Part shown: positions 7,133 through 63,137 of the stretch, piece after piece
How the letters are laid out: each line of letters starts with the position of its first letter
Position numbering within the stretch: the stretch's first letter is position 1
The notes under the pieces: model-generated
Databases searched by the model: none
Seen by the model: only the letters and a program-made list of their open reading frames with translations
Told to the model about the DNA's origin: nothing
Made by a program: the position numbers and the translations under genes
NCBI GenBank assembly: GCA_030295235.1
Contig: AP026146.1
Location: 496,001 to 560,000 of the forward strand
DNA length: 64,000 nt
Source: Fistulifera solaris
Lineage: Eukaryota; Bacillariophyta; Bacillariophyceae; Naviculales; Stauroneidaceae
Direction of reading: 5' to 3'

Positions 7133-9199
7133 ATGTCAGAAACTCCTTCCTTTGCAAGATCCCCATCGTTTGAGGAGGAAACGCCGCGTAATGACAATCC
7201 AAATACCGACAAATCTGGCACCCCGTTTTTTGCCGATTACATTATGGATCTTAGTGAAGCGCACGATCTTGCGGAGACTCCTGATCCAACAAAACCCCCG
7301 TTAGATGTTTCGAATTTGAATTCGAGTCGAATTCAAAGTATCCAAGTTCCTTCCCTTGGTGTTGCGTTAAAAGAACTGCAGAAGAATCGGACGCTGTTTC
7401 CTCGGAAGCTGATTCTACTTCTGGCAACGAGCCGCGATCGTTTAATCGCATCTCCAATGTGGAAATGAGTCTTCGTCATGCTTCTCCTCCCCCGTCTTTA
7501 CCTAGGTGGCCTCGAGATATTCCATGGGCATTTGCCTTTCTCGTATTTGTGCCATTATCAGCCATTGTGCCGATTCTCGATTGGCGACGGAACAACGTGG
7601 CATCACCGTTGGAAGTCCATCCGCTGTCGACAGCATCTTTGCATGCTCTTTTCTGGGCAGGAATCGCTGCACTGATATTAAGTAGAGCTCTGTATCGCAC
7701 CCCAGGAGGAGGAGATGGTGATGACGCCCGCTACTTGCTGGGCGCTGCCTTAACGACTGCGGCACCCATTTCGGTGGCAATAAATATTGCGCTCGTTTTG
7801 ATGATTCTTTACGCATGTCCTCATGCTCGATTAGGCGCACTGGTCCCTTTGTGGTACACGGTACGAGATCTTTACTTATTTCGTCGATGGCGAAGGAGAA
7901 ATCACCAATCGGGTGCAGGGAGTCGTCAAGCCTTTTTCCAGGCTTTGACATCCATGGTCTTGGATATACTCAGTCGTTCTTTACGGCGCGCCAGCTTCTT
8001 TCGTGTCTTAACTTTGACACTGGCAATACAGTTCGGGGTGTTGATTGTATGGCGTTGGGCTCTACTAGCATCGCTTCATCAGCCCCTCCATGTGATCCTG
8101 ATTGCGCTAATTGGCTTTAAATGGGTGACAGGAACAGTTGCACGTATGCTTAGCTTGCTTGCCTCGGGTGGCATTATGTCTTGGTTTGCGCAACAAGCAA
8201 GGCTAGCTCACGAGCTCCCCCTCCCCGTCCTTAGACCGCGAGAGCTCTGACGGTACCTCGGAAGACATCGAAAATGATGCTATGATAACCGAGGCATACA
8301 GGACGGTTGATGCATCTGTATACCAGTCCGTTGCTGACATGGACGATGTTTTGGATGATGACTATGAAGTGGATGACGAAGAGTTCCTCGAAGCTCCAAG
8401 CCCAAGAGTAGATGGACGGCGAGAATCGGTGCAGAGAGCCGGCGTTATGAACCACTCTACTGTGAAATCGATTTTGCATGGCGGCATGACCGTCTCTTTT
8501 GGGTCAGTTTGTCAGTGTGGTTTATTTGGGGGGATAGCGCAATTTTTGTGGAGCCAGATAAGAAAGATTGAATTTTCCCGGTCGTTGATACTGAGACACC
8601 GCAACAATATCGGACAAAATGGCTTTCGTGGGATGGAGGTAAACGGTTCAGATCAATCTTGCTGCACTCGGATGTACGAAAGCGCTCTTTATTTAGCAAG
8701 AAGCTTTGTGAGGAGGTTCTCGGATTTGGCCATGTGTCACGTTGCACTTTTTTACAAGAGTTATCAAAGGGCAGCCCTAGACGTTGCGACTCTGGTCGAA
8801 GAATCTGGTAAGTCCTCTCGCAGTCGCTAGACCGCTTTTCAAAGCTTTTCCACTCACAACCTTGGTACAGGAGTTGAGCCAATCCTTCACGACGACATCT
8901 CGACTCATATGTGCGCATGCGTTGGCGGGGCTATTTCGGGCATCATTGTGATTATAAGCGGCATACTGTTACTCCATCAGCGGAAGGACTTTAACCCTCC
9001 CATTTCCGATGCTCAAGTTGTCACAAACATGATTGCAGCTTTCATTTTTTCTTACACAATGATATTTACAGTCATGGAGCCCCTGCGAGCTTCTATCAAG
9101 GCTGTCTACGTTTCTTTCGCGCAACATCCAGAAAGCCTCAGTCGAGCCTTCCCTATCATTTACCACAGATTGCACAGGCTATCATCGGAGCACAGGTAA
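7133..9199 (+). CDS. Choline transporter-like (CTL/SLC44) membrane protein
   Basis: Polytopic protein of the Choline_transpo (PF04515) type, about 667 residues. Exons 7133-8807 and 8871-9199 with a 63-bp intron. The N-terminus (about 110 residues from MSETPSF) is acidic and Ser-rich, presumably cytoplasmic. About nine to ten membrane segments follow, the first at WAFAFLVFVPLSAIVPIL. The family signature is in the last third: HGGMTVSFGSVCQCGLFGG, then VVTNMIAAFIFSYTMIF, the TVMEPLRASIKAVYV helix, and FAQHPESL. Members export or import choline or related compounds; the substrate here is not established. One A appears missing in an A4 run near 7373 and one C is extra near 8225 (read as SPSLDRESSDG). 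An acidic loop lies at about 375-410. Converges with ornithine decarboxylase. Confidence 0.8.
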
Positions 9200-57700: not shown

Positions 57701-60269
57701 ATGATTACAAAAGCTTCTTTACTTTGGTGCATCTTGTATTCTACGATGCGAATGCTTTCACAACAATTCGCACTCCGAAAACGAGCATCATCTTGTTCGA
57801 AGGACGAAATTCGTTCCTTCCCGATCTTTCCGATCTCGCTAAACCGTTAAATGGATTCTTTGGTCCCAGTCGCACCGATGATTCCACGGCTTCGTCACCA
57901 GTGACATTTACATCCACACCGGAAGGACTGGTACTGCAAGCCAAACGCGTTTTGAACTCGGATCTTGGTTTACTCGATCCATCGTTATTGGATGACGAAA
58001 AATTTCAATGGTGAGTCCTACCGTCGACAAGCCTCTCGATAAAACCGATTATCTGGCCGCCGGTCGTTTCTTTGATTTGCGTGCAGCATTTCCGGATCTC
58101 AATTACCGCGCGCATGATTTTCGCATTGATATTGATGATGATGCGACCGTTCGATGCACGTGCCGGATTACGGGGACAATGCGCGGTGCATTGCGGCTGC
58201 GGGACGTATCTTGTCTCCCACCGGAAAGACCATGATCTGTCCGCCGGAAGGATTCAGCATGACATTCGATTTGGAGTCCGGAAAGCTTGTTAAACTTTGC
58301 ACCGGCTTTGCGATGGATCGTTTGGTCGGTAATACGCAAGGGACGACGGGGTTGTTGCTGCCGCCATTACGGGAGGCCAACCAATCTCCGATTGGGATAT
58401 ATACCCACCTGCTACGGTATTGAAACGCTTTTTCGGTAGACCGGTCAAGCCACTTCCGGAAGTATCCAACTTTTTGGCTCCGTTCCCTGAAACTGTCATG
58501 ATACAGCTGGCGAAAGGTATTATCGGTTCGAATATGGCCTCCGTCGACCCTTCCTTGTTAGCACAAAGCTTCACTTACATGACACCTTCACTTGGGCCCA
58601 TTGGAAAGGAAGAATTTCTTGAAAACTTTGCAAAAGAAGAATTTCAAGATGTTGATCCTCGTATCAGTAACTATCGTGTCGATCCGTATGACCCAGAACG
58701 TGTCTGGGTAGATCTGAAACCCGTCGGCACCGGTTATCAGGGTACACCACAGGCCATGTCCTTCACGTTTGATGGGGATGGATTTTGTACGAGAATCACC
58801 GCCGGAGCCGTCTTGGATCCGACCATTGGAAATGGTGGTGGGCTGGGGGGACCGGAAGGTTTGAAATATGCTCGCGGCCAGGCCTCCAATCCGTTAACAA
58901 CTCGACCTCTTCCTCGACTTTTGGCCCGTATCAAAAGGATGCGCTCGCTCCCTTGTCGGGCGTTGCACAGAAAGCATCGACAGTCCAAACAGTAATCTCG
59001 ATACCGAATAGTGCCGAGCCGCCTCGAGCGAAACGTACACCCGCTGCCCCACAGGAGAAACAATTAACACCCTTGGAAAAGCTTTCGGCGTCGGTGGGTG
59101 GGTCGATTAATTTATCCAATCTGGTCAAAGAGGAAAAGGCACCTTCTCCAGCGGTAAAGAGTTCTTCTCCCCCAGTAAGCAAGTCGGTGAAGCAACAATC
59201 GCCTCCATCGAGCATCAAACCACCACCTCCAAAATCGCCGCCGCAAGCCGTACGTCCTACGCCACCTCCTCCACCCAAGAATACCACGCCATTTCCCACG
59301 AAATCTCTGACGTTGCCTCTGGGAAGTATCAACATTCGCACACCTCCAACTCCTTCCTCTCCTAGCAAAGGTGCTAGCTCAATCGCAAAAAACGCGGCCG
59401 ACAAAGCAGCTCAGGCAAAACAGGAACAAAAACGAAAAGAGGCCGCCGAAGCTGCCAAAAAACAGTCTTTGGCCAAGGCTGCGGAACAAGCAGCCCGAAA
59501 GAAAGAAGAGGCGCGAAAAGCAGAGGCAACCAGAATAGAAATGGAACAAAAGAAAGAAGCAACCAGAAGGGCGAGCGAAGCCAAAGCAAAGCAAGAACAA
59601 GCTAAACGAGATCAGGAAGCTGCTCGAGAGCGACTTGTGGCGGACGGCAAGGCCAAGGCAGAAGCGACCAAACGAGCTATGGAACAACAGAAGCAAGCAG
59701 AAGCGCTGCAGAAGAAAAAAGCGGCAGCAATAAAAGAAATGGAAGAAAAGCGTCGCAAAGTGGAGTCTCTGACATCTTTGAACAAAGCGACATCCAGAGC
59801 CACGATCAGCCTCTTCGGGCGTCAGGAAACTACTGCATTGACCTCACCGAAACGTGATTCACAACCAAGTAGGAGTGTCGAAGTCGATCAACAACGTCGT
59901 GATTCGGAAAAGGACCAGAAGGAACGGGAGGAAGCGGCTTTGGCAATGCTTGCGAAAGCCGCTTCGAGAGCCACAATCAACTTGCTTGGATTAAAGAATC
60001 TGGACAACGAACCGTCAAAGTCACCGCAGAAAAAAAGGAATTACCGGCTACACTACCAAAGAGACCGGCTTCCACGAGCAAGGCACCGCAGGGTGCCAAC
60101 GCTTTCGCGATGGCGTGAAAATGCTGATGGCTCCGTTACAGGTAATGTATCGGGGTCGAGAAACTTTACAGATGGAGAAAAGATTACAACCAGCAAAATT
60201 GTGAGAGGGACTTTCGCCTCGGGTGAGATTGTCGTGACTGGTAGTGGCTCCAAGTATTATTTAAATTAG
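57701..60269 (+). CDS. Plastid-targeted protein: two SnoaL-like domains, Pro-rich linker, coiled coil
   Basis: About 857 residues after adding five missing bases (near 57757, 58010, 58205, 58352 and 58890), with a further compensating pair (near 60032 and 60105). The start MITKASLLWCIL and NAF|T form a diatom plastid signal. Residues about 70-240 and 250-395 each look like a SnoaL/NTF2-like cone (DYLAAGRFFDLRAAFPDLNY; TPSLGPIGKEEFLENF). A Pro/Ser linker (about 470-545) and an Ala/Lys/Glu coiled coil (about 560-690) follow, with a duplicated motif LNKATSRATISLFG / LAKAASRATINLLG. The C-terminus is Gly-rich beta sequence, DGSVTGNVSGS and TGSGSKYYLN. Substrate and role unknown. Stops 17 bp before the synthase gene on the other strand. 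Confidence 0.65.
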
Positions 60270-60285: not shown

Positions 60286-63137
60286 CTACGAGATTCGCTT
60301 AGGATTATCACGAATGGATTCGAGCTGTGCTCGAGGTAGAATTTCGTGTTTAGAGTTGACGGGCTGACTAACCCCGTCAAAAATGTCATCCCAATCCTGA
60401 GCGTCTTTGCCATAGCCCCAAGTCATCACTTCATCCCAGTTGTCTATTTGTTGACTTAGTGGCACTTGAGCCTGCTTCTTCAAAATAGTTTTCTCAATGA
60501 TTTGCTCAGCGAGATCATTTCCAACTACTCCAAGCCGCTCTTGAAGGCGTCCGACTGTCTTTATCTGCGCACCACGATTGCTAAGATCGCGTCCATACTC
60601 AAAAACATCGATATCAATACCATTTGCAGCCAAACCGTCTCGAATACTTTCGTAGTACCGCCTTTTCTCGCCTATAAAAAGCTCCAGCTCGAGTCTGTCT
60701 ACGCGAATAATATCTTTCTCGGTCGAATTTCCCAATAACCAAACATTCTTTTTAACAGCAATTTCGTAGGAAACAAAGGTTTCGATGATGCTACGTCTCC
60801 AGAGGACAATGGGGACGCACTTTACTTGTCCAAGACTCTGAAGAAACTGGATTGGGCTCATAGAGAGTTCGTTAAGATGTTCACGGAAAATTTTGAACGC
60901 CAGAATTGAATGTTCTGATGCTGATGGTATGCTACTTATGTAGTTGATCCAGTCAGCTTGTCTCTTGTAGCGACTGTTGAAAACGTCCATAAGCTTTTGG
61001 TATGTCAGTGACCAGGCTCTTCCACTTTCTTCTTTCAGGCGAGCGAAAAACCTCTTATTGGTGCTGTAAGCCCATGTCTCGTCTCCATCGTCGATGTGCA
61101 TTGGTAGGTTACATCCTTCATGCATTGCGTTTACACAGCGCCGAAGCAATCGTACCTGCTCGGCTTCATCATGAGTGTAAGGTTCGAGCATATTGCGAAT
61201 ATCTAGGACGTCTCCTGCACCATCGTGTAGCCCGTCGAGGATATTGAAAAACAGGTTCGATCCAGTACGTGGCTCTCCAAATACCACCAATGATTCACGT
61301 GGTTTAACGGTTGCGTATGTGTGAGCGGGGCATGCCCTAAGAGTCGAAGAATCCTGAAGGTCAACGAGGCTCAGATGACTCGAGTTTTGGAGCCCATCGC
61401 TCGTTTGCTGTGGGGAGAACAATTTACTTGAGCACACACTTAATTTTGGACAAGTCAAATCAAACTTACCGAATAGGTCAACACCATGAAGCAGTTCACG
61501 ACAACGATAAAAACAACACCAAAGCCACGTTGCTTTTGCTGGCTAAAAGACATGCAAAAGGTTTCGACATGGTTGCAGTATTTGGTGATCAAGAAAGAGA
61601 AGTTTACCCAGTATAATCCGATGCAAATTATCATGTTCATCGCTCTGATGAAAATGTCAAAGAGCCCGTAGCCATGCAGTCTTCCATCCAAAGCGAATAC
61701 GTAAATGGTTTGATGAAAAGCCAAGCACAAACCAGCAGAAGCAGTTAAGTCGTCGGTAGGACAAACTTTTATCTTTCGTGCGTTTGTTTTCTCGCAAACG
61801 TTGTTCTTTAGCCCCGCTTTCGGTGTCGTCAAGAATGTCGCATCATCAGAAAAGAAACCTTCCAAAACAGCCTTGACTTCGAATGCTGACATACCAAAAC
61901 GAAGTGCAAAGTACGGCAGAATGACGTTGAGGCGCAACAGACGTGACCACCAAAGGTTGTAATAGCCATTCTCGCTGGGGACCTTTTTCGTAAGAGCGTG
62001 GAGCGCCGAGGCAACAGGTTCAACGATAGCCGAAACGGAGACGGCCTTGACCATTAAAGAATCAATCTGATGGTAAACAAGATATGGATAGACCATGAAA
62101 ACCAATGCCGTCATAATCAATTGCAAAGGCCCACACAAATGCAAAAAGGCTTCCAATTTGACCTGAAAAGGAGTGTGCGGCGAGACCAAAACTTCCCCAT
62201 AAAATATGCGAAGTACTTGAATAAATCCTTTTGTCCACCGCTGTTTTTGTTGAACGTGTGCTAGAAAATTCCCAGGTACTTCGAGCTGCTGGGGCGCAGT
62301 GCGAACATAATGAAACTCATATCCAGCGAGGTATGCCTTGTAGGAAAGAAGTAAATCTTCGGTGACCGTGTCCGAGCTGAAAAGGCCAGCTGCTTGGATG
62401 GCATCTCTTCTCCAAACACCTCCAGTACCGTTGAAGCCAAATACGCCATGGACACGATGACGACCGACTTGCTCTACAACGTGATGAATATCCAACCCAA
62501 GAGCATCACACTCGGTCAAAAGGTTCTCGTGCGTATTGTAATAGCTCCAAGGGGTTTGAACGAGCCCAATATGATCTTTGCACTCGCCGTTTGCGTCATA
62601 GAAATGCGGAATTGTTTTTCGAAGAAAGTCGGTAGTAATTTGATGATCGGCATCAAGATAAGCCACGAATTCGCCTTCAATGAAAGGAAAGTTGTGATTG
62701 AGATTGCCAGCCTTGTAACCAACGCGATTCGGTCGAGCATGCCGCGAAACGTTAAAGCCCTTTTCTCTCCACTCGACGACGGAATTCTCAATAATGGCAA
62801 TACTTTCCTTTTCGGTCGAGTCATCACAGATTTGAATGCTGAGTTTATGTAGCGGCCAATCCAACTTACAGCAGCGTGTAATCGTTTCCTCCACCACATG
62901 TGCCTCGTTGTAGGTGCATATTTGAATAGTGACATGCGGTTCCTTACCCTGTAATAGATCAGGAGGACACGCGTCTTCTGCAGATGACTCGAAGTAGAAG
63001 CAGTAGATCGATACGAGCAAGTTCTTCCAACGGGAAAAGCTATAAAGCCATATTCCGGTTGATGCAGTGAAGAAGACGATCAGGAGAGGCAAATGCCAGG
63101 GGTCGTTCTCGTGAAAAGGATGCAGCGAGATGAGCAT
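60286..63137 (-). CDS. GT2 polysaccharide synthase fused to sulfotransferase
   Basis: 929 residues from exons 63137-61470 and 61407-60286; the 62-bp intron (TCG|GTAAGT..CACAG|CAA) is in phase 0. Residues 1-556: an N-terminal membrane helix, then a processive GT2 domain with ICDDST (103-108), YLDADHQ (160-166), FGFNGTGGVWR (233-243), VTED (258-261) and QQKQRW (296-301), then about five membrane helices. GFNGTxGVWR and the helix layout are closest to plant CSLA/CSLC mannan- and glucan-synthase types. Residues 557-929: a soluble sulfotransferase-like domain with P-loop GEPRTGSN (600-607), which should bind PAPS. The second part has no ATG before its P-loop, so it cannot be an independent intact gene. 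The likely product is a sulfated wall polysaccharide made in the Golgi. Confidence 0.85.

Follow-up and report, generated by a model that had tools for sequence, protein, structure and literature searches.

Can one membrane protein both build a polysaccharide chain and sulfate it? The question is raised by a gene on the minus strand of the 64,000-nucleotide stretch of Fistulifera solaris DNA analysed here (the window), which is part of contig C35 in an assembly of 51.7 Mb and 61 contigs. A first-pass annotation had described a single polypeptide in which a family 2 glycosyltransferase (GT2) synthase is spliced to a sulfotransferase, and this is supported by the joined reading frame, by a homeologous copy on contig C34, by paralogs on contigs C36 and C37 and by the fold predicted for the sulfotransferase half. 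The gene has the following parts (PAPS, 3'-phosphoadenosine-5'-phosphosulfate):

61470..63137, minus strand: exon 1, 556 codons between the start ATG and the donor, encoding a processive GT2 synthase; Pfam match PF13632 at 6.5e-24, BcsA chains at 1e-21
61408..61469, minus strand: phase-0 intron of 62 bp, GTAAGT...CACAG; same site and length in the C34 homeolog, 71 bp in C36, 72 bp in C37
60286..61407, minus strand: exon 2, predicted PAPS-type sulfotransferase, 373 codons plus stop

The coordinates, donor, acceptor, intron length and phase given in the first-pass annotation all proved exact when the sequence was read again. The frame opens with an ATG at 63137 and reaches the donor TCG/GTAAGT (the slash marks the exon boundary); the intron ends at CACAG/CAA, and exon 2 closes with a TAG at 60288-60286, so that splicing yields a single frame of 929 residues. 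When left unspliced, the GT2 frame continues for 4 further codons (VSLI) past the donor and then stops. The absence of an ATG ahead of the sulfotransferase P-loop, also claimed earlier, is borne out, as the P-loop is codon 91 of the stop-to-stop frame and the first methionine is codon 118. A GTAAGT within the final 24 nt is found in 2 of the 65 window open reading frames of at least 150 aa (the fused gene and 8207-8830). The fusion of GT2 synthase and sulfotransferase is real, a conclusion that we hold with very little doubt, and the junction intron is presumably spliced in vivo.

Matches elsewhere in the genome occur pairwise, on contigs of adjacent number, and this pairing of contigs with homeologous genes would fit an allopolyploid diatom such as F. 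solaris, for which homeologous gene pairs are described (excerpt of PMC5935921). The homeologous copy, C34:532674-535444, holds an intact fused frame of 903 aa, with an intron that is again 62 bp long (GTAAGT...CCACAG), in phase 0 and at the identical codon position. The two fused proteins are 93% identical in the GT2 part and 85% identical in the sulfotransferase part; the alignment of the homeologs gives 92.1% identity for the GT2 exon, 89.5% for the sulfotransferase exon and 82.0% (50 of 61 aligned positions) for the intron. The ratio of nonsynonymous to synonymous substitution rates (dN/dS) is 0.117 for GT2 and 0.308 for the sulfotransferase, both point estimates without a test and both well under 1. 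About 27 residues at the C-terminal end of the window protein are not conserved in C34 and are modelled without confidence.

The genome holds six close copies of the window GT2, four of them fused to a sulfotransferase. Thus, the fused protein of the first-pass annotation stands, but not as a single case: it belongs to a small family with one, two or four sulfotransferase units. The four copies beyond the C35/C34 pair lie two apiece on C36 and C37, the first (GT2a) without a sulfotransferase and the second (GT2b) with several:

L042:1813-5922 (C36): four tandem sulfotransferase units
L044:2310-4415 (C37): two tandem sulfotransferase units
L041:3737-5480 (C36) and L043:3085-4850 (C37): GT2a copies, beside the fused ones

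In GT2b, the last helix is followed by a donor, GAG/GTAAGT, and by a phase-0 intron of 71 bp (C36) or 72 bp (C37), after which the frame runs on for 1370 aa with the four units of C36, their P-loops 335 residues apart, or for 702 aa with the two units of C37. Between C36 and C37, dN/dS is 0.025 for exon 2 of GT2b and 0.072 for sulfotransferase unit 1. A chance fusion through a strong donor was considered and is ruled out by the retention of the donor in every one of the four sulfotransferase-bearing copies; the agreement of two homeologous pairs likewise rules out that the fusion arose from an assembly error. Over 900 nt, units 1-3 of C36 share 99.0-100% DNA identity with one another and 93.9-94.9% with unit 4, and the units of C37 are 99.6% identical, while dS between unit 1 of C36 and unit 1 of C37 is 0.348. 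These values therefore suggest that the units were multiplied or homogenised separately in each subgenome, unless the assembly misjudged the repeats. GT2a keeps a donor-like GAG/GTGAGT after its last helix, and no sulfotransferase was found downstream of it (best tblastn E value 0.17 on C36, nothing on C37); it has either lost the sulfotransferase or represents an older form. A tree of 17 sulfotransferase units leaves unresolved the joins that would decide whether the two fused groups share an origin, and the case for a single origin of the fusion therefore rests on the common intron position.

The same sulfotransferase units also occur without GT2, clustered at C23:70026-87668 and C24:67512-81539 (L045-L050), with a hydrophobic N-terminal segment. 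The largest such array has about five tandem units (C23:75386-70029); several units on C23 and C24 are frame-shifted, and the shifts differ between the two contigs.

The synthase half has its nearest solved relatives in the chains of bacterial BcsA cellulose synthase. It carries the complete D,D,D,QxxRW motif set of processive GT2 enzymes and a sequence close to the gating-loop signature FXVTXK of BcsA, as both are defined in an excerpt of PMC10374906:

62817..62828, minus strand: CDDS, residues 104-107, first motif of the set (PMC10374906, excerpt)
62643..62657, minus strand: LDADH, residues 161-165, GT2 motif
62355..62363, minus strand: TED, residues 259-261, GT2 motif, presumably the catalytic base
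62235..62252, minus strand: QQKQRW, residues 296-301, the QxxRW of processive synthases
61818..61835, minus strand: FLTTPK, residues 435-440, like FXVTXK with T replacing V (PMC10374906, excerpt)
61470..61526, minus strand: sixth and last predicted membrane helix, residues 538-556, which would move the C-terminus to the opposite side of the membrane

The likeness to BcsA covers the motif set and the closest solved sequences; FLTTPK, with predicted membrane helices after it, is a candidate gating-loop motif. In contrast, the fused synthase has one predicted helix ahead of GT2 and three after the gating-like motif, where BcsA has several helices before its GT2 domain and two after the gating loop, and no PilZ domain was matched in Pfam and curated-family scans of the window protein. 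The curated cut-offs for cellulose synthase are not reached (TIGR03030, 121.6 of 699.1 bits; NF008558, 96.2 of 992 bits), and the structure model of the GT2 part, built on 10 rows of which 8 are exon fragments, is too poor for use (predicted local distance difference test score, 40.6). The plant CSLA mannan synthases, which the first-pass annotation had suggested the GT2 motifs resemble, are also processive GT2 enzymes with QxxRW; to our knowledge, no sulfotransferase is present in them. Elsewhere in the genome, a different GT2 frame of 962 aa with several hydrophobic stretches lies on C5 (L053 559-3447), with a partner on C6; no sulfotransferase P-loop was seen in the C5 frame by eye, and it may serve as an unfused comparison.

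For the C-terminal part the first-pass annotation had suggested structure prediction, and on a second look by structure comparison the predicted fold of exon 2 is that of a PAPS sulfotransferase. The model has no close Foldseek match; the assignment rests on this second structural look together with family matches and the following motifs, considered in A1, an alignment of 13 sulfotransferase rows:

61258..61272, minus strand: PRTGS, residues 602-606, putative 5'-phosphosulfate-binding loop; RTGS invariant in 13 of 13 rows
60769..60801, minus strand: WRRSIIETFVS, residues 759-769, candidate 3'-phosphate-binding motif R-x7-S

Within the latter, R204, R205, E209, V212 and S213 are invariant in all 13 rows; we take RTGS to be the 5'-phosphosulfate loop and R-x7-S to define the 3'-phosphate motif. 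Pfam Sulfotransfer_3 matches 7 of the 13 members at E values up to 0.5 (best, 1.1e-5), but it gives no match to the window exon and, against a cut-off of 27 bits, scores of 16.6 and 17.2 for two C36 units; the NCBIfam cut-offs are likewise not reached by the window exon or by one C36 unit. A profile of A1 run against PDB sequences returned only two matches, both unrelated (E values 0.097 and 0.24). Known PAPS sulfotransferases (SULT, Stf0 and the heparan sulfate 3-O-sulfotransferases) are 8-16% identical over the aligned parts and differ in that the units described here occur in tandem and are fused to a GT2 synthase. Sulfotransferase domains are also built into polyketide synthases (4gox of an olefin synthase, 4gbm of the curacin pathway), where the chain is a polyketide and sulfation serves its ending; here, in contrast, a membrane-bound sugar polymerase builds the chain.

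On which side of the membrane would the sulfotransferase lie? In each of the four fused proteins (4/4), a hydropathy scan predicts a single helix ahead of the GT2 domain and another five downstream of it; C34 has an additional weak segment at 403-421 (1.34), the position at which the interface helix of BcsA would lie. With a cytosolic GT2 domain and gating loop, as BcsA has them, the five helices after GT2 would carry the C-terminal sulfotransferase to the opposite side. In line with the earlier view of a shared membrane face, the predicted helices would put the sulfotransferase on the face at which the chain exits. Other features favour a lumenal sulfotransferase, although none proves it: an N-x-S/T site lies at most 16 residues past the last helix in all four fused proteins; a cysteine stands shortly ahead of the P-loop in the rows of the window, C34, C36 and C37 and in 6/6 array units examined; and the GT2-free genes on C23 and C24 have a hydrophobic N-terminal segment (above 1.6 in four of five, 1.45 in the fifth). 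The loop ahead of the last helix of the window protein has 3 K/R and 1 D/E. On the predicted topology, the sulfotransferase is probably lumenal.

We give a rough probability of 0.63 to the reading of the gene product as a single membrane protein in which a processive, BcsA-like GT2 synthase carries a C-terminal PAPS-dependent sulfotransferase that sulfates the emerging chain. The cytosolic GT2 domain would add sugars from a nucleotide sugar and push the chain through the channel that the synthase itself forms in the membrane; the sulfotransferase would sit at the channel mouth, in the lumen of the secretory system, or at the cell surface if the protein arrives there and PAPS is present, and would meet and sulfate the chain on exit. 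That it acts on the chain of its own synthase seems probable. Sister genes carry two or four units, and unit number (one, two or four per synthase) may therefore set how densely the chain is sulfated. In Escherichia coli, three BcsG transferases per BcsA modify the nascent chain in the periplasm (excerpt of PMC11470070). A modifier tied to the synthase on the chain-exit side has a precedent there; unlike BcsG as that excerpt presents it, the modifier here is a sulfotransferase, covalently joined and present in one to four units. More tentatively, and at somewhat less than even odds, these genes may represent a eukaryotic class of synthase that sulfates its own product at exit, with sulfation density written as the number of tandem units and changing separately in two subgenomes by duplication or conversion.

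Several observations weigh against this reading. Just past the acceptor, identity between the homeologs is at the level of the intron, 82.0% (91/111), and dN/dS over the 37 codons after the acceptor is 0.337, though the gap between the homeologs in this stretch spans 3 columns, one whole codon. The count of four units against two may also be an assembly error, since units 2 and 3 of C36 are identical. If the exons belonged to two separate neighbouring genes, the sulfotransferase would have its own unseen first exon and a promoter inside the GT2 gene. This is very improbable: intron-like short stretches do arise by chance, and a methionine lies ahead of the first P-loop in C36 and C37, but the window frame has no ATG in that place, and all four sulfotransferase-bearing copies have a GTAAGT donor in phase 0 right after the last GT2 helix.

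Alternatively, the junction intron could be spliced in part, retention giving a synthase without sulfotransferase and splicing the sulfating form, so that splicing would be a switch for sulfation. Read-through past the donor does stop after 4, 22, 28 and 23 codons in C35, C34, C36 and C37, respectively, so that retention would leave the synthase complete, with a short tail, in 4/4, and the GT2a paralogs have their donor-like site but no sulfotransferase. However, a stop within 30 codons is often expected in any unselected frame, and it falls inside the intron in only two of the four (C35 and C37); we regard such a switch as unlikely. Slightly better placed, though still improbable, is the view that the fusion anchors a sulfotransferase acting on another acceptor, such as a glycoprotein or a nearby, different polysaccharide. 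The sulfotransferase fold is uninformative on the acceptor, and the occurrence of the units in GT2-free arrays means that they do not require GT2; yet two paralogous loci (four gene copies) retain the fusion to one and the same GT2 group, with low dN/dS, and a simple anchor would suffice for tethering.

What would a self-sulfating synthase of this kind make? Inverting GT2 enzymes are expected to form beta links from the D-sugar donors GDP-Man (GDP-alpha-Man) or UDP-Glc. The sulfated diatom mannan solved so far, by nuclear magnetic resonance, is, in contrast, a C6-sulfated alpha-1,3-mannan (excerpt of PMC13063451). The suggestion that the enzyme is the maker of the sulfated glucuronomannan of the diatom wall, put forward in the first-pass annotation, is thus unsupported and seems to us a poor prospect. 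Better candidates are a glucan, mannan or glucuronan with beta links, or a chain with alpha-L links made from a beta-L donor.

Neither half is of a new kind, and fusions of GT2 enzymes with other enzyme domains have been recorded: in Dictyostelium and brown algae, a GT2 domain carries an appended GT74 module (excerpt of PMC11468063), a source whose excerpt names no sulfotransferase as an addition and no tandem copies. Among the matches listed from the open-licence literature, no title or abstract opening describes a GT2-sulfotransferase fusion, let alone one in which the number of sulfotransferase units varies; an earlier description is possible. Outside this genome, scans with two short peptide patterns per alignment covered viruses (viral_contigs) and bacteria and archaea only (genome_contigs), and so say nothing on other algae; the sulfotransferase alignment A1 gave 4 and 16 pattern matches, respectively, and the GT2 alignment A3 gave 103 and 87, none of them confirmed as relatives.

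Sulfated polysaccharides of algae are important for carbon export, for gels and for the recruitment of bacteria, but few of the enzymes behind their synthesis are known. In a 2024 survey of brown algae, a neutral chain made first and sulfated afterwards was thought likely (excerpt of PMC11468063). A synthase with built-in sulfotransferases, if true, would be a direct molecular alternative to such a make-then-sulfate order, would be testable as a single gene and could be an engineering part for sulfated polymers of chosen sulfate density.

Next to the fused gene, on the plus strand, the window holds a long frame (58773-60269) with a proline-rich part followed by a part rich in charged residues. 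The two genes stand tail to tail, with 16 bp between the end of this frame and the fused gene's stop codon, and the 3' ends of the two messages therefore probably overlap.
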